Shown one piece after another: positions 36,544-54,108 of a DNA stretch of 55,343 nt. How positions within the stretch are numbered: position 1 is the stretch's first letter; each line of letters begins with the position of its first letter. The notes under the pieces were generated by a model. The model worked only from the letters and a program-made list of their open reading frames with translations, was not told the origin of the DNA and searched no databases. A program made the position numbers and the translations under genes. Origin of the DNA: Limisphaerales bacterium (GTDB taxonomy: Bacteria > Verrucomicrobiota > Verrucomicrobiia > Limisphaerales > SXTU01); NCBI GenBank assembly GCA_009773355.1, contig WRPG01000032.1, forward strand, positions 1 to 55,343, written 5' to 3'.

Positions 36544-38592
36544 TCAGTCCGGCTGCAAATCCACGCACACCACGCTCGCGCTGCTGCGGACGTAAAGCCG
36601 CGTCCCCACCAGCGCCGGATGCGAATACACGTCCCCGTCGTCCGCGAACAGCTTCACCCGCGACAAGATGGAGCACCGCTCGGACTTCGCGTCGAGCAGC
36701 AGGAGTTCACCGCCCATCGTCGCCACCAGCACCCGCTCGGCATCGGTGAACAACGCCGCGTGGTCGCCCAGCGCGGATTCTTCGCGGTGCCAGAGCGGCT
36801 TCAGACCTGACCGCGCATCGAGGCAGTGCAATCCCCGGTGCGCGCCGAAGACCCGCCCGCCCGTCACCACCGGCGTCGCGGTGTCCGGTTTCAACTCCGC
36901 GAAGACCGCCGCCGGCTTGGGAATTATCCGCCCCGCGTCATCGAAGCGATACAGCCGCGTGCCGTTGTTTTCAGTGGCGACGACAAGGCCACCGTCCACG
37001 GCGACGGGCGTGGGCACGTTGAAGTCGCCTTCCGTGGGCGGCACGAGCTGCCAGAGCCGCGCGCCGGTCTTCACGTCCCAGCCGCCGAGCGAGGTCTTGT
37101 CGTAGCCCACAATTTGCCGCCGCCCCCCGAACTCACCGCAGATGAAGGCCGCATAAGCCGCCGGCTCGCCGGGCGTGCTCCAGCGCGTGCGGCCGGTGAC
37201 GCGGTCGAGTGCCGCGAGCGAGGCGTTCGTGCCGCCGGGGTTCACGATGAGCAGGTCATCCACCACCAGCGGAGGGGGGCACATCCCCCACGTCGGCAGC
37301 TCGGCCTTGAACTCGCGCGGCAGGTTTCGTTTCCAGAGCAGTTTGCCGGTCGCGGCGTTCACGCAGCGCAGCTCGCCGAACGCCCCGAGGAGATACGCGC
37401 GGCCTTGGTGAATGACCGGCGTGGCGCGCGGCGACTGGCCGTAGTCCAGCTTGCCGGGCGCGGGAAACGCGGCCAGCCAGACCAGTTCGCCCGTGTCGGC
37501 GTTCAGGCAGCGGTAAACATCCTGCGCGTCGGCAAAGTCGCGCTCGGCCAGGTAGAGCCGCCCGCCGCTCACGCTCAAACCGGCAAGGCCGCCGGTCATG
37601 GCGGCCTTTTTCCAGACGAGCTTGGGTTGCGCGGGCAGACGCGCCGGCAGTCGGGGCACATGGCCATCGCGGCCCGGCCCGCGCCAGTCCGGCCATTCGC
37701 CCGCGCTGCTCTGTGACCCGCTGTTCAACGGCTTGAAGCCGTCGCGGCTTTCCAGCGCCTTGAGGAGCCTCGCGTCGGTCCTGATGCCGAGCAGCGTGCT
37801 GAGAATCTTCTCCCGCTTCTCCGCCGCGATGGCGTCGGCCACGAACACGGTGATGAACGGCACCGGCTGCGACGTGCCAATCACCTTCAGCGCGCCGGGC
37901 GTGGCGCTGCCACAGCCCTCCATGAGGCGGAGCGCGTAGGCGGGCACCACGGCCACCGGCAGCGGGGTCGCGTCACTGTCCAGCACGTCGAGCGCGGCAT
38001 CGGTGTAGACGGGGCGGCGCACTGGCTTGGCGGGCACCTCCACCCCGGCCGCACGCAACGCGGCCAAGGCGGCAGTGCTCTTCCCGTCCGCCTCGGTCAG
38101 TCCGAAGAGAAGCCTCCGCCCGGCAATGTCCTTCAGTGTTTTGGCCGGGTCGCTGGAGCGCGCAACGAACGCGGCGGCGAGCGTGGTCTCGCCGTCGAGG
38201 CCGGTGAGTTCGGCGACCGGCTGGCTCTTGAGGCCGGCCTTTTGCGCGCCATGCGTGACCGCCGAGCGGTCGCCGATGATGATGACTTCGCGTCCTGCTC
38301 CCGCGCGGGTGAGTGACTCGGTGAGATCGTCGGAGAACTCAATGGCCACGCGTTGCCGCAGGGCAGACTCCAGCCGCGCCGCAAGCTGGCGGTAATCGCG
38401 CTGGCCGAAGCCCTTCACGCACGCGCAGGCCAGTTCGCGCGAGAGCGGGTCGAGCACGACGAGCAGAACCGGCTCCGAGGCGCGGGAGGAAAGTTTCCCC
38501 GAGGCACAGCTTGCGACAAGCAGGGCCACCAGCGCGAGTAGCGCGACATTCCAATGTCGCGACAGCGGAAAGGGTGGCATGGGCGGATGCAT
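36544..38592 (-). CDS. Lipoprotein fusing a PhnD-like binding domain to a PQQ-type beta-propeller
   Basis: 682 residues. Lipobox VASC (Cys about 29). Residues about 40-275 look like a periplasmic PhnD-type (phosphate/phosphonate/phosphite) binding domain: 'REVIIIGDRSAVTHG', 'AAAFVARSSDPAKTLKDIAGRRLLFG', 'VAVVPAYALRLMEGCG', 'FITVFVADAIAAEKREKILSTLLGI'. From about 295 ('GEWPDWRGPGRDGHVPRLP') to the end is a PQQ/BamB-like propeller with repeats 'LYLAERD..D.YRCLNADTGELVW', 'RAYLLGAFGELRCVNAATGKLLW'. The signal peptide residues SRHWNVALL are encoded by an arm of a palindromic repeat. The pairing of a ligand-binding domain with a propeller suggests an exported sensor or binding protein (inference). 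Confidence 0.85.
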   Translation of the reverse strand: MHPPMPPFPLSRHWNVALLALVALLVASCASGKLSSRASEPVLLVVLDPLSRELACACVKGFGQRDYRQLAARLESALRQRVAIEFSDDLTESLTRAGAGREVIIIGDRSAVTHGAQKAGLKSQPVAELTGLDGETTLAAAFVARSSDPAKTLKDIAGRRLLFGLTEADGKSTAALAALRAAGVEVPAKPVRRPVYTDAALDVLDSDATPLPVAVVPAYALRLMEGCGSATPGALKVIGTSQPVPFITVFVADAIAAEKREKILSTLLGIRTDARLLKALESRDGFKPLNSGSQSSAGEWPDWRGPGRDGHVPRLPARLPAQPKLVWKKAAMTGGLAGLSVSGGRLYLAERDFADAQDVYRCLNADTGELVWLAAFPAPGKLDYGQSPRATPVIHQGRAYLLGAFGELRCVNAATGKLLWKRNLPREFKAELPTWGMCPPPLVVDDLLIVNPGGTNASLAALDRVTGRTRWSTPGEPAAYAAFICGEFGGRRQIVGYDKTSLGGWDVKTGARLWQLVPPTEGDFNVPTPVAVDGGLVVATENNGTRLYRFDDAGRIIPKPAAVFAELKPDTATPVVTGGRVFGAHRGLHCLDARSGLKPLWHREESALGDHAALFTDAERVLVATMGGELLLLDAKSERCSILSRVKLFADDGDVYSHPALVGTRLYVRSSASVVCVDLQPD

Positions 38593-38640
38593 CTAGCCGT
38601 GATGAGAGGACAAAGCCCCGACATTGGAATGTGGAGCCAC
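38538..38640. repeat. Palindromic repeat, GACATTCCAATGTC type, copy 1
   Basis: Left arm about 38,538-38,561 (core CGACATTCCAATGTCG, itself a 7-bp hairpin) and imperfect right arm about 38,619-38,640. The left arm is inside the coding sequence of the PhnD-PQQ lipoprotein, the start codon (38,590-38,592) is in the spacer, and the right arm is upstream of the gene. The same core recurs at 52,228-52,302. Confidence 0.75.
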
Positions 38641-41174: not shown

Positions 41175-41206
41175 GGTTGCAAAGGAGGCCTCATCCGCCT
41201 CGCCCC

Positions 41207-41313
41207 GGAGCGCGGGTCTCCGGCCCGCAGCAGCCACCCCGACTCAGAAGGGCTTCGGACATCTGCCCGCCCCGCTGCGCCCGTTGCCGCTGCGGCCCGG
41301 AGGGCCGCGCTCC
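41207..41313. repeat. Twin-hairpin repeat, GGAGCGC type, copy 3 (intergenic)
   Basis: Arms 41,207-41,230 and 41,290-41,313 match at 21 of 24 positions after reverse complementing; spacer 59 nt. Each arm forms its own hairpin (about GCGGG...CCCGC and GCGGCC...GGCCGC). It lies upstream of the methyltransferase gene and would be read as its N-terminus if the frame were extended. Confidence 0.75.
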
Positions 41314-41335
41314 GCCCGACGCTGGCTGTCTTTCT

Positions 41336-45990: not shown

Positions 45991-46593
45991 TCAGCCGGGG
46001 TGGGCAGGCGCGAGCGGAGCGCGGCCTTCAGGCCGCAGGAACGCACGCACTTCAATGGTGGAACGGAAGCCGCACTCCGCCCCGGCCTTCTGCGGCGTGA
46101 ACGCCGCGCTCCGGGATGGGGTGATGACCACGGTCTGGTCAAAATAGAATTCGTCTCCGGCGACGCTCCATTGCACGCGGACCTTCCAGAGGCCGGGCTG
46201 AAGGGACTTGGCATCGAGCATTTGCTCGCCTGCGGAGTTCACCGCCAACTTCATCTCGCGGTCCAGCTTCGCGTCGGACGGGCGGTAGAAGTTGATTCTG
46301 CCCCGGGCCTGCGCGGCGTGCGCGGCGGGGAGCGCGACGGTGATGCGTTGCTGGGCGTCGTCGTAGGCCACCTTGACCTCGGATTGAATCGGGTGCGTGC
46401 GGGCCTGCCGGTCAATCTGTTGCTGGTGGCGAATCTCCTGGTCGTAGTAGTCGGCGCGGACGAGGTCCATGTCGTTGCGCACGGCGACGACGATCCACGC
46501 GGCCATCGCGGTGCCGAAGAGCAGGAACCAGCCGATGATGGCGTAGGGCCAGAGACTGCGAGGTGGGGCGGGCTTAATGGCGTTCGCGTTCAT
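45991..46593 (-). CDS. fixH: FixH/CcoH family protein with repeat-encoded C-terminal tail
   Basis: 200 residues from ATG 46593 (ATG 46611 also in frame). One N-terminal membrane helix (SLWPYAIIGWFLLFGTAMAAWIVV), then 'VRADYYDQEIRHQQQIDRQART' and a periplasmic beta domain ending 'GLWKVRVQWSVAGDEFYFDQTVV', all usual for FixH. Family role: needed for cbb3 oxidase assembly. A normal FixH would stop near residue 160; here about 35-40 more residues (SRSAAFTPQKAG...FLRPEGRAPLAP) are encoded by the twin-hairpin repeat at 46,016-46,112. The start overlaps the end of ccoG by 20 nt. Confidence 0.85.
   Translation of the reverse strand: MNANAIKPAPPRSLWPYAIIGWFLLFGTAMAAWIVVAVRNDMDLVRADYYDQEIRHQQQIDRQARTHPIQSEVKVAYDDAQQRITVALPAAHAAQARGRINFYRPSDAKLDREMKLAVNSAGEQMLDAKSLQPGLWKVRVQWSVAGDEFYFDQTVVITPSRSAAFTPQKAGAECGFRSTIEVRAFLRPEGRAPLAPAHPG
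46016..46112. repeat. Twin-hairpin repeat, GGAGCGC type, copy 2, forming the fixH 3' end
   Basis: Arms 46,016-46,038 and 46,090-46,112 are reverse complements at 21 of 23 positions. Relative to copy 1 the left arm changed GCGGCG-TTCA-CGCCGC to GCGGCC-TTCA-GGCCGC, two compensating changes that keep the stem. Read in the fixH frame it has no stop codon. Confidence 0.85.
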
Positions 46594-48911: not shown

Positions 48912-51068
48912 TTAGTTGCTCGCGGTCTTCACGGGCGGCGCGTTGGTCGCCTTGATGTCGGTGCCGAGGCGTTGCAGGTAGGCCACGAGCGCGATGATTT
49001 CGCGGTCGGGCGGTGCGTTGGTGATCGCGCCCTGCTTGAGGTTCTCCACGACTTTGGCGGTCTGGGCTTGCAAGTTGGTTTGCGCGGTGGCCTCGAAGCC
49101 AGCGGGGTAGGGCACGCCGGCCTTGCGCAATGCGCCGAGGCGGGCGGGCAGGGAGTTCGTCTCCAACTTCTGCGTCAGCAGCCACGGATAGCGCGGCATG
49201 ATGGAACCCGGCGAAGTCAGGCGCGGGTCGTCCATGTGGTTGTAATGCCACGCGTCGGGATACTTGCCGCCGATGCGGTGCAGGTCGGGACCGGTGCGCT
49301 TGCTGCCCCAGAGGAACGGGTGGTCGAAGACAAATTCGCCGGCCTTCGAGTAGTCGCCGTAGCGCTCGGTCTCGCTGCGGAAGGGGCGAATCATCTGCGA
49401 GTGGCAGCCCACGCAGCCCTCGCGGATGTAGATGTCGCGCCCGAGCACTTCGAGCGGCGTGTAGGGTTTTACGGCGGCAATGGTCGGGATGTTCTCCTTG
49501 ATGACCCACATCGGGATGAACTCGACGAGGCCGCCGATGGCCACGGCCACGAGTGCGAAGACCGTCATCACCATCGGCTTGGATTCAATCCAGCGGTGGC
49601 CCCACGGGTGTTTCTCCTCGTGAACTTCCGGCTGCGACTTGAGCGCGGAGGCCTGCACCTCGACCTCCGGCACGAACACACCGGACTTGGCGGTCTTCCA
49701 CAAGTTGTAAGCCATCAGGCATGTGCCGAGGATGTAGAACGTGCCGCCGATGGCACGCAGCTTATACATCGGGATGAGCTGCAACACGGTCTCCAGAAAG
49801 TTCGGATACTGCATGAAGCCCTCGCTGGTGAACTGCTTCCACATCAGCCCCTGCGTGATGCCGCTCCAATACATCGGGATGACGTAGAACATCATGCCCA
49901 GCAGCCCGAGCCAGAAGTGCCAGTTCGCAAGCTTCACGGAGTAGAGCTTGGTGTTGTAGAGGCGCGGGAAGAGCCAGTAGAGCACGCTGAAGGTGAGGAA
50001 TCCGTTCCAGCCCAGCGCGCCGGTGTGGACGTGCGCGATGGTCCAGTCGGTGTAATGCGAAAGCGAGTTGACGCTCTTGATGGCGAGCATCGGGCCTTCG
50101 AGCGTCGCCATGCCGTAGGCGGTCACGGCCACGACCATGAATTTCAGCATCGGCTCGGTGCGGAGCTTGTCCCATGCGCCGCGCAACGTGAGCAGGCCGT
50201 TCAACATGCCGCCCCAGCTCGGTGCGATGAGCATCAGCGAGAACACCATGCCGAGCGATTGCGCCCAGTCCGGCAGCGCCGTGTAGAGCAGGTGATGCGG
50301 CCCCGCCCAGATGTAGATGAAGATGAGCGCCCAGAAATGGATGATGGAGAGCCGGTAGCTGAACACGGGCCGCTCCGCCGCCTTGGGCAGGAAGTAATAC
50401 ATCAGGCCGAGGTAGGGCGTGGTGAGGAAGAACGCCACGGCATTGTGCCCATACCACCACTGCACCAGCGCGTCCTGCACGCCGGCGTAAATCGAGTAGC
50501 TCTTGAACGCGCCCGCCGGCACGCCGAGCGAATTGACGATGTGCAGCATCGCCACGGTGACGGCGGTGGCGATGTAGAACCAGATGGCAACGTAAAGGTG
50601 CTTCTCCCGGCGCCTGAGAATCGTGCCGAGCAAGTTCACCGAGAAGGCGACCCAGACGAGCGCGATGGCAATGTCAATGGGCCACTCCAGCTCCGCGTAT
50701 TCCTTGCTCGTCGTGATGCCCAGAGGAAGCGTCACCGCCGCGCTGACGATGATGGCCTGCCAGCCCCAGAAGTTAATCCAGGAGAGCGTGTCGTTGAACA
50801 TGCGCGCCTTGCAGAGCCGTTGCAGCGAGTAGTAGATGCCCATGAACATGCCGTTGCCCACGAAGGCGAAGATGACGGCGTTGGTGTGCAGCGGGCGCAG
50901 CCGCCCGAAGGTGGTGAACTGGAGGTTCAGGTTCAGCTCCGGCCAGAAGAGCTGGCACGCGATCAGCAGCCCCGCGCTGAAGCCCACCAGGCCCCAGACG
51001 ACCGTGGCAATCGCGAACGCGCGGACGATGCGGTTGTCGTATTTGAACGTTTCGATGTTCGGGTTCAT
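48912..51068 (-). CDS. ccoNO: Fused cbb3 oxidase subunits I and II (CcoN-CcoO)
   Basis: 718 residues. Residues about 1-480 are CcoN: 12 or so helices with heme/CuB ligands in 'RPLHTNAVIFAFVGNG', 'QWWYGHNAVAFFLTTPYLGLMYY', 'AGPHHLLYTALPDWAQ' and 'DWTIAHVHTGALGWN'. After a helix at about 510-530 (MTVFALVAVAIGGLVEF) comes CcoO with a c-type heme site EGCVGCHSQMIRPF (Cys 552, Cys 555, His 556). N-O fusion is known in some phyla. Terminal oxidase, O2 to water, pumps protons, high O2 affinity. ATG 51068 overlaps the ccoS stop (ATGA). Confidence 0.95.
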   Translation of the reverse strand: MNPNIETFKYDNRIVRAFAIATVVWGLVGFSAGLLIACQLFWPELNLNLQFTTFGRLRPLHTNAVIFAFVGNGMFMGIYYSLQRLCKARMFNDTLSWINFWGWQAIIVSAAVTLPLGITTSKEYAELEWPIDIAIALVWVAFSVNLLGTILRRREKHLYVAIWFYIATAVTVAMLHIVNSLGVPAGAFKSYSIYAGVQDALVQWWYGHNAVAFFLTTPYLGLMYYFLPKAAERPVFSYRLSIIHFWALIFIYIWAGPHHLLYTALPDWAQSLGMVFSLMLIAPSWGGMLNGLLTLRGAWDKLRTEPMLKFMVVAVTAYGMATLEGPMLAIKSVNSLSHYTDWTIAHVHTGALGWNGFLTFSVLYWLFPRLYNTKLYSVKLANWHFWLGLLGMMFYVIPMYWSGITQGLMWKQFTSEGFMQYPNFLETVLQLIPMYKLRAIGGTFYILGTCLMAYNLWKTAKSGVFVPEVEVQASALKSQPEVHEEKHPWGHRWIESKPMVMTVFALVAVAIGGLVEFIPMWVIKENIPTIAAVKPYTPLEVLGRDIYIREGCVGCHSQMIRPFRSETERYGDYSKAGEFVFDHPFLWGSKRTGPDLHRIGGKYPDAWHYNHMDDPRLTSPGSIMPRYPWLLTQKLETNSLPARLGALRKAGVPYPAGFEATAQTNLQAQTAKVVENLKQGAITNAPPDREIIALVAYLQRLGTDIKATNAPPVKTASN

Positions 51069-51259
51069 TTCAGTTTCGGATTCGGAGAGTTGTCGGGCTT
51101 GGAATCGGGTTTGGCGGCGATCTTCTCGTCGAGCAGCAGTCGCATCGAGGGGGTCGTGGTGTCCTCGTATTGGCCGGACCGCACGGACCAGATGAACGCG
51201 AAGAGGAACGCCACGGCGAAGACGATGCTCAACGGGATGAGGAAGAAGATGACGCTCAT
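51065..51259 (-). CDS. ccoS: CcoS, cbb3 oxidase maturation protein
   Basis: 64 residues. MSVIFFLIPLSIVFAVAFLFAFIWSVRSGQYED is the standard CcoS pattern: one helix followed by a short 'SGQYED' cytoplasmic stretch. ATGA overlaps link it to both ccoI (upstream) and ccoNO (downstream). Needed for cofactor insertion into cbb3 oxidase by family knowledge. The frame can be extended upstream to 51,316, but that part reads the STLN-type repeat and is rejected. Confidence 0.92.
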   Translation of the reverse strand: MSVIFFLIPLSIVFAVAFLFAFIWSVRSGQYEDTTTPSMRLLLDEKIAAKPDSKPDNSPNPKLK

Positions 51260-54108
51260 GCGGCACCTCCGGTGAGTTGAGGGTTGAGAGTTGAAAGTTG
51301 AGAGGCCGCCGCACACCGACTCTCAACTCTCAACTCCCCATCTCTCAACTTCCTCCCCAGCCACGCCGTCATGCCGCAGGCGAAGGCCACGACGGACACG
51401 GAACTGAGCGGCATCAGAATGGCGCAGACCACTGGCGAAAGATTCCCGCTCGCGGCGATGCTCACGCCCACGATGTTGTAGATCGTGGAAATCAGGAACG
51501 CCGCGCGCACCGTTGCCACGGACTGCTTTGCGTAGCGCAGCACTTCCGCCAGCCGCGGCACCATCTGCGCCGACGCGATGATGTCGCTCGCGGGCGAGAA
51601 CGCGCTGACGCTCTCCACCACGGCCACGCCCACGTCGGCCTGCTTGAGCGCGCCTGCGTCGTTCAGGCCGTCGCCGACCATCATCACCGTCTTGCCGTCG
51701 CGCTGGAGGCGTTTGATGAAGTCGAGCTTGTCCAGCGGGCTTTGGTTGAACTGCAAGAGCGCGTCGGAACCGAAGAGCGCGCGGAAGCGCTCGCGTTCGC
51801 GCTCGTTGTCACCGCTTAGGAGCGCCAGTTCGTAACGGGAGGAAAGCTCCGTGATGAGCTGGCCGGAATCCGACCGCAGCGCGCTCGCCAGCACGAAGCA
51901 GCCGCGTTGGCGGCCGTCAATCGCAACGTGAACGTAGGAGCCGACGTGAGGAGGCTCTGATTGAGTCGGGTCTGGGGAAGATGGAGCCTCCTTACGTCGG
52001 CTGCTACACGCGACGCCACGCGATTCCAGCCACGCCGCCGAGCCGGCCCAGATTTCGTGGCCGTCAACCTGGCCTTCCATACCGCAACCCGTCGTTTCGA
52101 GGAACGACCGCACTGGCTCGGGGAAGTGCTGGCCTGCAATCGCCTCGCCGATACGCACGGCCAGCGGATGCGTCGAGTGGCGGGTCATCGAGTAAAGCCA
52201 GCGTTCCTCGGCGTCGGTGAGTTCGCCGTAGCTCGACATTCCAATGTCGAGTCCTTCGGCACGGGTGGCGTTGCTGGTCTCGACATTGGAATGTCGAGCT
52301 ACTTGCGCGCCTTGCCACGTCACGCTGCCCGCGCCCGCCGCCGTGAGCGTGCCGGTCTTGTCGAAGACGATGGCGTTCACGCGGGCCAGCGTTTCGAGCA
52401 CGAAGGGGTTCTTCAGAAACACATTCCGCCGCCCCAGCACGCGCTGCGCGGAGCCGAGCGCGAAGGGCGCGGCCAGCGCCAGCGCGCACGGGCACGCCAC
52501 GATAAGCACGGCGGTGAAGGCGTTCAGGGACTTGGCCGGATTGACCACCGCCCAGAACACCGCCGCGCCGACCGCGACGGTGAGGATGATCTTCGTGAAG
52601 CGTTGGCTGTAGGCGTTGGTGAGCGCGTTGAACGACTCGGTGCGGTCCTTGCGGAATGCGTCCTGATTCCAAAGCGAGGTGAGGTAGCTCTGCGACACGG
52701 GTTTGACCGTCTCGACTTCGATGGCTCCGCCCATCTGCCGGCCGCCGGCGTAGAGGTAATCGCCAGGCTGCTTCGCCAGTGGTTCGGATTCGCCCGTGAC
52801 GAAGCTGTAGTCAATCAGCGCCGGGCCGGAGAGCAGTTTCGCGTCGGCGGGGATTAGTTCGCCGTTTCTCAGCAGGAGGTGGTCGCCGATGGCGAGTTCG
52901 GAAAGGGACACGCGAGATTCCTGCGGAGCGCCGGTCTCCGAACCGGCTTTGTCTGCGACGTCGGCCAGCCGATTTGGAAATCGGCGCTCCACCCGCGTCA
53001 CCGACAGCGGGAAGAACGACTTGTAATCGCGGTCGAAGGCGAGGCGGTTGTAGGTTTTCTGCTGAAACAGCTTTCCGCAGAGCAGGAAGAAAATCAGGCC
53101 GCAGAGCGAATCGAAGTAGCCCTCGCCGCGCCCGCTGGCGACCTCCCACACGCTCTGTGCGAAGATGGCCACGATGCCTGCGGCGATGGGCACATCAATG
53201 TTCAGCAAGCGCTGCCGCAGGCTCGCCCACGCGGAGCGGTAGTAGTCCGCCGCGCTGAAGGCCACGACCGGCACGGCGAGCAGCAGGTTCAGCCAGCCGA
53301 TGAGTTCCTTGAGCTGCGGCCCGGTGAACGCGTCGAGTCCGAAGTAGCCGGTGATGGCGAAGAACATCGCGTTGCCGAACGCAAAGCCCGCGACGCCGAG
53401 TTGCAGCCAAAGGCGGCGGGCGGGGGGATTGGCCGGCTTCGCGTCGAGGTCGGCCAATTTCAACTCCGGCTCGTAGCCCAGCGACGCGAGCAGCGCCGCG
53501 ACTTCGCTCAACTTCACCCGCGCCGGGTCGAAGGCGACGGCGGCCTCCTTGCGCGCGAAGTTCACTTGCGACTGGCCGATGCCGGGCAGGAGGCGGAAGA
53601 GATTTTCCAGCAACCACACGCAGGCGATGCAATGGATGGCCGGCAGGTGGAACGTGACGCGCGTCAGTTTGTCGTCCGCGAAGTCCACCAGCCGCGCACG
53701 CACCGCCGGCTCGTCGAGAAAGGCGAAGCGGTTTGTTGCCGTCGGTTGCGCCACGCGGATGCCGGGCTGCTCGGCGAGTTGGTAGAAGCCGGCCAGTCCG
53801 TTTTCCGTGAGCAGCTCGAACACCGCGAGGCAGCCGGCGCAGCAAAACGATTTGTCCGCGCGTGAGTGGGCCGCGCTGCCACAGGCCGCGCCGCAGTGGA
53901 AGCAGGCTGCCTTCACAGGTGCCTCGCTTCGTTCGGCTGGGATTTGGGCTGCTGCCAATGCGCTCACGTTGGTTGCCGTCGTTGGGGGTCTCGGGGGGAC
54001 TGGTTTTCCCTTACCGGCGACAGAGTGGGGCAGGGGAGCTTGCGGCGCTTTTCGGGAATTGCCGAAGGTCAGCCGCTTTTTGCCGTGCCGCGTGCAAGGG
54101 CAGTCCAC
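51256..54108 (-). CDS. ccoI: Copper-transporting P-type ATPase CcoI, carrying four repeat-encoded insertions
   Basis: 950 residues from ATG 54108; a later start (GTG near residue 49) is possible as the first ~60 residues are not conserved. Then a Cys-rich 'CFHCGAACG...FCCAGC' segment (about 68-100), an HMA domain with CIAC (about 159), the membrane segments, CPC in 'VACPCALALAAPF' (about 538), FDKTGTLT (about 580), HSTHPLAV and GDGLNDAGAL. Loads copper for cbb3 oxidase. Insertions absent from ordinary homologues: about 373-397 (VERRFPN...GAPQES), about 602-627 (VARHSNVE...GMSSY), about 700-727 (ACSSRRKEA...HVGSY) and the C-terminal tail from about 920 (QLSTLNPQL). Each matches a palindromic repeat in the DNA, and the frame continues through. 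Loop placement is inferred from family layout. Confidence 0.9.
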   Translation of the reverse strand: MDCPCTRHGKKRLTFGNSRKAPQAPLPHSVAGKGKPVPPRPPTTATNVSALAAAQIPAERSEAPVKAACFHCGAACGSAAHSRADKSFCCAGCLAVFELLTENGLAGFYQLAEQPGIRVAQPTATNRFAFLDEPAVRARLVDFADDKLTRVTFHLPAIHCIACVWLLENLFRLLPGIGQSQVNFARKEAAVAFDPARVKLSEVAALLASLGYEPELKLADLDAKPANPPARRLWLQLGVAGFAFGNAMFFAITGYFGLDAFTGPQLKELIGWLNLLLAVPVVAFSAADYYRSAWASLRQRLLNIDVPIAAGIVAIFAQSVWEVASGRGEGYFDSLCGLIFFLLCGKLFQQKTYNRLAFDRDYKSFFPLSVTRVERRFPNRLADVADKAGSETGAPQESRVSLSELAIGDHLLLRNGELIPADAKLLSGPALIDYSFVTGESEPLAKQPGDYLYAGGRQMGGAIEVETVKPVSQSYLTSLWNQDAFRKDRTESFNALTNAYSQRFTKIILTVAVGAAVFWAVVNPAKSLNAFTAVLIVACPCALALAAPFALGSAQRVLGRRNVFLKNPFVLETLARVNAIVFDKTGTLTAAGAGSVTWQGAQVARHSNVETSNATRAEGLDIGMSSYGELTDAEERWLYSMTRHSTHPLAVRIGEAIAGQHFPEPVRSFLETTGCGMEGQVDGHEIWAGSAAWLESRGVACSSRRKEAPSSPDPTQSEPPHVGSYVHVAIDGRQRGCFVLASALRSDSGQLITELSSRYELALLSGDNERERERFRALFGSDALLQFNQSPLDKLDFIKRLQRDGKTVMMVGDGLNDAGALKQADVGVAVVESVSAFSPASDIIASAQMVPRLAEVLRYAKQSVATVRAAFLISTIYNIVGVSIAASGNLSPVVCAILMPLSSVSVVAFACGMTAWLGRKLRDGELRVESRCAAASQLSTLNPQLTGGAA
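51273..51350. repeat. GTTGAGA/TCTCAAC inverted repeat cluster at the ccoI 3' end
   Basis: Left block 51,273-51,304 has several spaced GTTGA units; right block 51,319-51,350 has the reverse-complement CTCTCAACT units. It encodes the peptide QLSTLNPQL near the CcoI C-terminus, while in other frames it gives strings such as STLNSQL. Confidence 0.7.
51934..52007. repeat. Twin-arm repeat, GAGCCGACGT type, inside ccoI
   Basis: Arms 51,934-51,957 and 51,984-52,007 match at 22 of 24 positions when reverse complemented; spacer 26 nt. Each arm has a GAGCC...GGCTC-like stem, and the element begins GTAG and ends CTAC, as does the one at 52,228. Encodes about residues 700-727 of CcoI. Confidence 0.85.
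52228..52302. repeat. Twin-arm repeat, GACATTCCAATGTC type, inside ccoI
   Basis: Perfect 24-bp inverted arms 52,228-52,251 and 52,279-52,302, 27-nt spacer, total exactly 75 nt (25 codons). Each arm is itself the hairpin CTCGACATT-CC-AATGTCGAG. Encodes about residues 602-627 of CcoI. Related copy at 38,538. Confidence 0.9.
52925..52990. repeat. Twin-arm repeat, GGAGCGCCG type, inside ccoI
   Basis: Arms 52,925-52,947 and 52,968-52,990 match at 19 of 23 positions; total 66 nt (22 codons). The arms differ but each keeps its stem: GCCGGT...ACCGGC in one, GCCGATTT-GG-AAATCGGC in the other. Encodes about residues 373-397 of CcoI. Confidence 0.85.

Follow-up and report, generated by a model that had tools for sequence, protein, structure and literature searches.

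Based on an analysis of a 55,343-nucleotide stretch of DNA from a Limisphaerales bacterium (contig WRPG01000032.1; hereafter, the window), the three palindromes inside the gene ccoI are REPINs of three different families. We consider it very probable that these inserts were spread by RAYT transposases and survive in genes where the reading frame stays open and the protein loop is tolerant, their peptides being neutral. The original prediction had placed the palindromes at 51934–52007, 52228–52302 and 52925–52990, interrupting the CcoI frame without a stop or frameshift; these coordinates were confirmed, and the 950-aa ORF is unbroken across all three elements, designated E1, E2 and E3. The features of the region, all on the reverse strand, are as follows.

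48912–51068, reverse strand: ccoN/ccoO fusion (NF011053, TIGR00780, TIGR00781).
51065–51259, reverse strand: ccoS (FixS, PF03597), overlapping the ccoI stop (ATGA).
51256–54108, reverse strand: ccoI, 950 aa, GTG start, a P1B-type copper ATPase of cbb3 oxidase maturation.
51264–51270, reverse strand: likely ccoS ribosome-binding site GGAGGTG, assigned by eye, inside the 3′ end of ccoI and downstream of the heptamer hairpin.
51271–51350, reverse strand: inverted arrays of heptanucleotides (GAGTTGA / ACTCTCA) that form a hairpin and encode most of residues 922–946.
51934–52007, reverse strand: E1, a head-to-head REP doublet with GTAGCAGCCGACGTAAGGAGGCTC-type arms, 74 bp, residues 701–725 (CSSRRKEAPSS...EPPHVGSY).
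52228–52302, reverse strand: E2, a head-to-head REP doublet with GTAGCTCGACATTCCAATGTCGAG arms, both perfect, 75 bp, residues 603–627 (VARHSNVE...LDIGMSSY).
52925–52990, reverse strand: E3, a head-to-head REP doublet with GGAGCGCCGATTTCCAAATCGGC-type arms, 66 bp, residues 373–395 (VERRFPNRLADVADKAGSETGAP).

The surrounding cco operon is intact, with FixP (ccoP-type) and FixG (ccoG-type) genes following the ccoN/ccoO fusion. Pfam domains ATPase-cat_bd, HMA, E1-E2_ATPase and Hydrolase were found in the CcoI ORF, and among 55 homologues the CPC, DKTGT, HP and TGE motifs are invariant and GDGxND is at least 90% conserved. Differences between the CcoI core and its nearest relative at codon positions 1, 2 and 3 (0.11/0.07/0.34) indicate that the core is under purifying selection. 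It should be noted that the first 63 residues of the ORF (53920–54108) are unconserved before approximately residue 64 and have a pLDDT near 30; the real start of CcoI is probably farther downstream than the GTG.

Coding-like codon usage is absent inside the ccoI inserts, where the score per codon was −0.03, −0.02 and −0.45, whereas elsewhere in ccoI, up to residue 921, it ranged from 0.17 to 0.46. Each doublet folds together with its spacer into one hairpin, as REPINs do. The E2 arm consists of GTAG followed by CTCGACATT-CC-AATGTCGAG, giving a 9-bp stem with the loop CC. The E1 arm is GTAG plus CAGCC-GACGTRAGGA-GGCTC, with a 5-bp stem and a 10-nt loop (the outer pair is mismatched in one ccoI E1 arm), and the E3 arm has an 8-bp stem and the loop CC. 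These arms fall within the stem-loop range of the GTAG superfamily (5–13 bp stem, 2–20 nt loop) and share its high copy number and predominance of head-to-head dimers. The arms of E1 and E2 begin with the superfamily tag GTAG, while E3 begins with GGAG and, departing at position 2, strictly lies outside it. Across subfamilies and genomes, the E1 stems covary (CAGCC/GGCTG, GAGCC/GGCTC, GAGAC/GTCTC, CCGCC/GGCGG) around the near-constant loop GACGTNAGGA, as expected of a REP.

At ≤3 mismatches, the window contains 2 matches to the E1 monomer and 4 to the E2 monomer (shuffles expect 0.00). Genome-wide, the same threshold gave 200 matches for E2 and 151 for E1, with 0 for the reversed control pattern in both cases, and about 26 BLAST matches were found for E3; thus, the elements do recur across the genome, as a search proposed with the original prediction was meant to reveal. 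E1 was present in 21 of the 25 genomes tested within the order, and a phylum-wide pattern search returned only a small number of genomes from this order. E2, of which this genome has 200 copies and no other examined genome of the genus more than 12, is a species-level burst nearly confined to the present genome, which the perfect arms in ccoI fit. Three further REP-type inverted-repeat pairs were noticed in the window (38538–38640, 41206–41314 and 46015–46113), one of them E2-like but with an altered stem (GTAGCGCGACATT), the other two being CGGAGCGCGG pairs.

Two of the families are linked to a RAYT. A RAYT ORF with the HVH motif (L003) has exact E2 doublets at both borders, and a second RAYT (L002, NF047646 above the cut-off) has E3-type arms at both borders, whereas no E1-flanked RAYT was found among the three Y1_Tnp genes of the draft genome (95% complete). 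The E2-linked ORF (L003:1069–1860) terminates within an E2 repeat, with the C-terminus ...GSSTFQCRVEEQPA.

Comparison with 54 CcoI homologues was used to examine whether the sites are empty elsewhere. The E2 loop has 30 residues versus a modal 3 (47 of the 54 homologues); the alignment has a gap in 53 of 54 orthologues, and in the majority of relatives from the order the break falls exactly at about 602|630. The E3 loop has 30 residues versus a modal 11, and the E1 loop 36 versus a modal 22, with highly variable length. The clean gaps foreseen in orthologues were therefore obtained for E2, and the E3 insert is mostly absent from them, but the expectation did not hold for the variable E1 loop, in which some relatives retain relics. 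This loop is long in same-genus relatives too; clear E1-type arms (17/24 and 22/24 matches) lie at the E1 junction in L019, from another family, and weaker ones in the orthologue L023, also from another family, while L016, of the same genus, has a similar peptide at the site with an arm match that is not significant. The idea that E1 is simply a recent insertion was accordingly rejected; its site is older and more complex than those of E2 and E3 and no plain case of presence and absence.

In other lineages, these ccoI loops are filled by different families. L006 has an E1-type arm at the E2 site, L017 a GTTGGAGTCC doublet of the GGAGTC type at the E3 site, and L022 a GGAGCGCCGAGC-type doublet at the E1 site. 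This favours loop tolerance over sequence targeting. In the AlphaFold model of CcoI (mean pLDDT 77), E3 lies between strands 369–374 and 396–401, E2 (pLDDT <50) between strand 596–600 and helix 632–642, and E1 between helix 691–696 and strand 724–730. All three inserts are thus in predicted loops, in agreement with the earlier proposal that they form surface loops. A fixed target-site duplication was sought at insertions and not found; since the net insertion exceeds the element by varying lengths (81 bp versus 75 bp for E2 in ccoI, 75 versus 73 bp in AcrB), the mechanism is not marked by a target duplication of fixed size.

The fourth repeat named in the prediction, a GTTGAGA-type repeat at the tail of ccoI, is of another kind. 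It exists and supplies the C-terminus, but it consists of two inverted period-7 arrays (51274–51304 and 51319–51350) and is a genus-wide heptamer hairpin rather than a fourth REP family. It was present in 4 of 4 same-genus orthologues examined, and its interpretation as a fourth mobile insert was rejected, as it is common to the genus. The hairpin lies directly upstream of the likely ccoS ribosome-binding site and the ATGA overlap.

To assess how REP doublets are placed in genes elsewhere, a census was made of copies with about 1.5 kb per side, that is, 465 kb around the elements or 7.5% of the draft genome, in which coding calls came from a model of codon usage that had been trained on this DNA itself, and not from annotation. 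In frame within ORFs were 33 of 59 E1 doublets (33 of 66 when the set was anchored by arms with ≤1 mismatch) but only 3 of 49 E2 doublets (Fisher p=1e-8 for E1 versus E2), and 6 of 8 E3 elements were inside ORFs. E1 consequently sits in genes nearly at the rate of random spots (50–56% versus 63%) and E2 rarely (6%); E2 fits the extragenic location of REPINs, whereas E1 and E3 do not. With the two flanks scored separately and the frame not presupposed, 31 of the 34 E1 doublets whose two flanks are coding on the same strand were in frame and open, where 1/3 would be expected (p=3e-12).

The hosts named by Pfam include DNA polymerase III alpha (DnaE), valyl-tRNA synthetase (ValRS), UvrA, EPSP synthase (AroA) and ArgJ, as well as AcrB-type pumps, Mfd, FeoB, a DUF3516 helicase, ketoacyl synthase, sulfatase and PSD1 proteins. 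UvrA is present in copies with a doublet in one and a single arm in another. A gene of the PSD family (L067:947–4501) carries both an E1 and an E2 doublet, each in frame. The E1 peptides are stereotyped (GSSRREEAPS...QSLLTSAAT), and the expectation that such peptides recur was correct for this genome, in which SSRR(E/K)EA-type sequences occur in about 20 in-frame copies. The odd recurring peptides of the group, SSRREEAPS, QSLLTSAAT and VARHSNVE, are explained as apparently translated repeats. The E1 family is unusually successful within genes.

We suggest the following route for the inserts. A REPIN is a non-autonomous miniature element, composed of a head-to-head pair of GTAG or GGAG REPs with a short spacer, and RAYT (HUH tyrosine) transposases probably spread it through a single-stranded DNA hairpin. 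Copies would land widely, and the intragenic survivors would be those with an open frame, avoiding the stop-bearing phase (TAG in GTAG), in a tolerant loop. The ccoI gene, with three tolerant loops, would have gathered three copies, each of a different family. The inserted peptides are most likely made yet functionally neutral; we infer this, like the transposition route itself.

Alternatively, transposition could have played little or no part, the inserts arising locally through the formation of hairpins and slippage or through gene conversion between loops that already exist. The heptamers speak for this idea: in AroA, ArgJ, DnaE and the helicase, the very loop that is occupied here frequently contains tandem arrays of 7 bp in REPIN-free relatives. 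The unit varies by species (in AroA, for example, GGCAAAA, AATCCAG, AAATCAA and AACTCCA), and the heptamer-filled loops of genus orthologues (L204–L280) stay in frame. Exact period-7 tracts numbered 24 in the sampled DNA (one being a run of N) versus 0–3 for each other period from 4 to 13, and several of them are located within REPIN spacers. The lack of a linked RAYT for E1 here would fit a local origin too, as would the stems of UvrA, which differ as a set between species (GAGAC/GTCTC-type in five relatives versus CAGCC/GGCTC here); this difference indicates that the UvrA arms have been exchanged or altered as a set. However, the many scattered E2 copies with identical arms, together with the empty sites in orthologues, require copying to new places. 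Of the nine relatives aligned for each of ValRS and AcrB, eight have an empty site and the ninth a REP-type insert. We regard a mainly local origin as improbable, although slippage or conversion could still account for turnover at old sites.

Slightly less probable, in our estimation, is that the insert peptides were co-opted and are kept for a role in their hosts, such as a surface tag or an interaction patch. The stereotyped E1 peptides would agree with this, and so would the UvrA REPIN, which is kept throughout the genus, being retained in five relatives at about 82–87% protein identity. The codon positions of UvrA point the other way. At third positions, the five relatives differ from one another by 0.10 and 0.09 within the two arms, against 0.35 for the spacer and 0.29 for the flanks; position 1 of the spacer (0.35) equals position 3, and position 2 of the arms is not below position 3, with small counts and non-independent pairs behind these values. 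The arms thus appear to be conserved more like DNA than peptide, while the spacer peptide looks unconstrained, and this free drift of the spacer makes a peptide function unlikely. In addition, the host proteins are unrelated, the peptide depends on the frame used, and insert-free ValRS and AcrB orthologues keep their flanks conserved. A second UvrA gene (L202:1132–3099) contains an E1 arm (1576–1599), a GGAGCGCCGAGC doublet (1775–1840) and the in-frame 7-bp arrays CCCCAGA and CAATCGG (1985–2006 and 2737–2763).

Least probable of all is removal of the hairpins by RNA excision or ribosomal bypassing, so that they never reach the protein: the RNA hairpins of the ccoI elements are predicted to be very stable (about −37 to −53 kcal/mol) and bypassing of inserted hairpins is known in other systems, but removal would free the frame and the stops, yet the frame is kept and 31 of 34 E1 doublets are open.

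Beyond the preferred reading of RAYT-spread, neutral REPINs, we offer a tentative and rather doubtful extension, namely that E1 is a REPIN family shifted to life in genes. Length classes and phases with an open frame would have become dominant, arms at old coding sites would be renewed by conversion or re-insertion faster than synonymous decay, and spacer heptamers would remodel the loops of essential proteins species by species. A REP is normally DNA of the gaps between genes, and here it is apparently translated as extra protein loops. REPs were named as extragenic, and in this one genome the gene-avoiding E2 is found beside an intragenic E1 in genes of replication, repair and translation. 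This contrast amounts to a natural experiment that can show whether the location of such elements is set by selection or by the target choice of the transposase, and it also probes how far selfish DNA can write loops of essential proteins.

The pattern had originally been likened to the Rickettsia palindromic elements (RPEs), which are in-frame palindromes in conserved protein genes (Ogata et al.; PMC2229807); one RPE-tagged enzyme, guanylate kinase, remains active (PMC2229807). The likeness stands insofar as in-frame palindromes within conserved protein genes were found here too, but kinship does not: the present elements are no kin of RPE-1 but GTAG/GGAG REP doublets, the E2 and E3 families being tied to RAYTs, and they measure 66–75 bp versus 105–146 bp for RPEs (PMC2229807). 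RPE-4 and RPE-6 are assigned to the CGTC superfamily and not to GTAG in PMC3733652. The ccoI elements work like an RPE but are not RPEs.

With the REPINs of Pseudomonas fluorescens (Bertels and Rainey 2011, PMC3116915), they share an inverted REP doublet with a spacer, a single hairpin, conserved ends, a variable spacer and RAYT linkage; REPINs there are extragenic, whereas E1 and E3 here are commonly intragenic.

Cyanobacterial STRRs are heptanucleotide repeats. TAACTGA heptanucleotide repeats were described in Beggiatoaceae (PMC4679880). Both have in common with the present arrays 7-bp tandem units, many per genome; several arrays here, unlike those as far as described, are in frame in core-gene loops and inside REPIN spacers, with a unit that differs between relatives.

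The closest precedent is the description of GTAG-tagged REPs, including intragenic ones, in Opitutus terrae and further genomes (Di Nocera et al. 2013, PMC3733652), beyond which nothing on verrucomicrobial RAYTs or in-frame heptamers was found in the open-access literature. According to the portion of that paper covered, the two systems share the GTAG tail with a stem-loop, head-to-head dimers with spacers mostly of 20–100 bp, dimers within ORFs that encode 20–30 aa, the striking of DNA-repair genes (one uvrA gene there has two dimers) and the phylum. They differ in that three families occur here in one gene, and in that most REPs there are intergenic, whereas about half of E1 is within ORFs in the present sample; heptamer spacers and arm turnover at orthologous coding sites were seen here and are undescribed in that portion. 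In-frame or intragenic REPs as such are already known (2013), the Rickettsia RPEs being an older precedent. Within the part of the literature covered, what is apparently new is a REP family residing about half in ORFs beside a gene-avoiding family in one genome, as are the heptamer arrays that occupy the same loops and the turnover of arms at an orthologous coding site.
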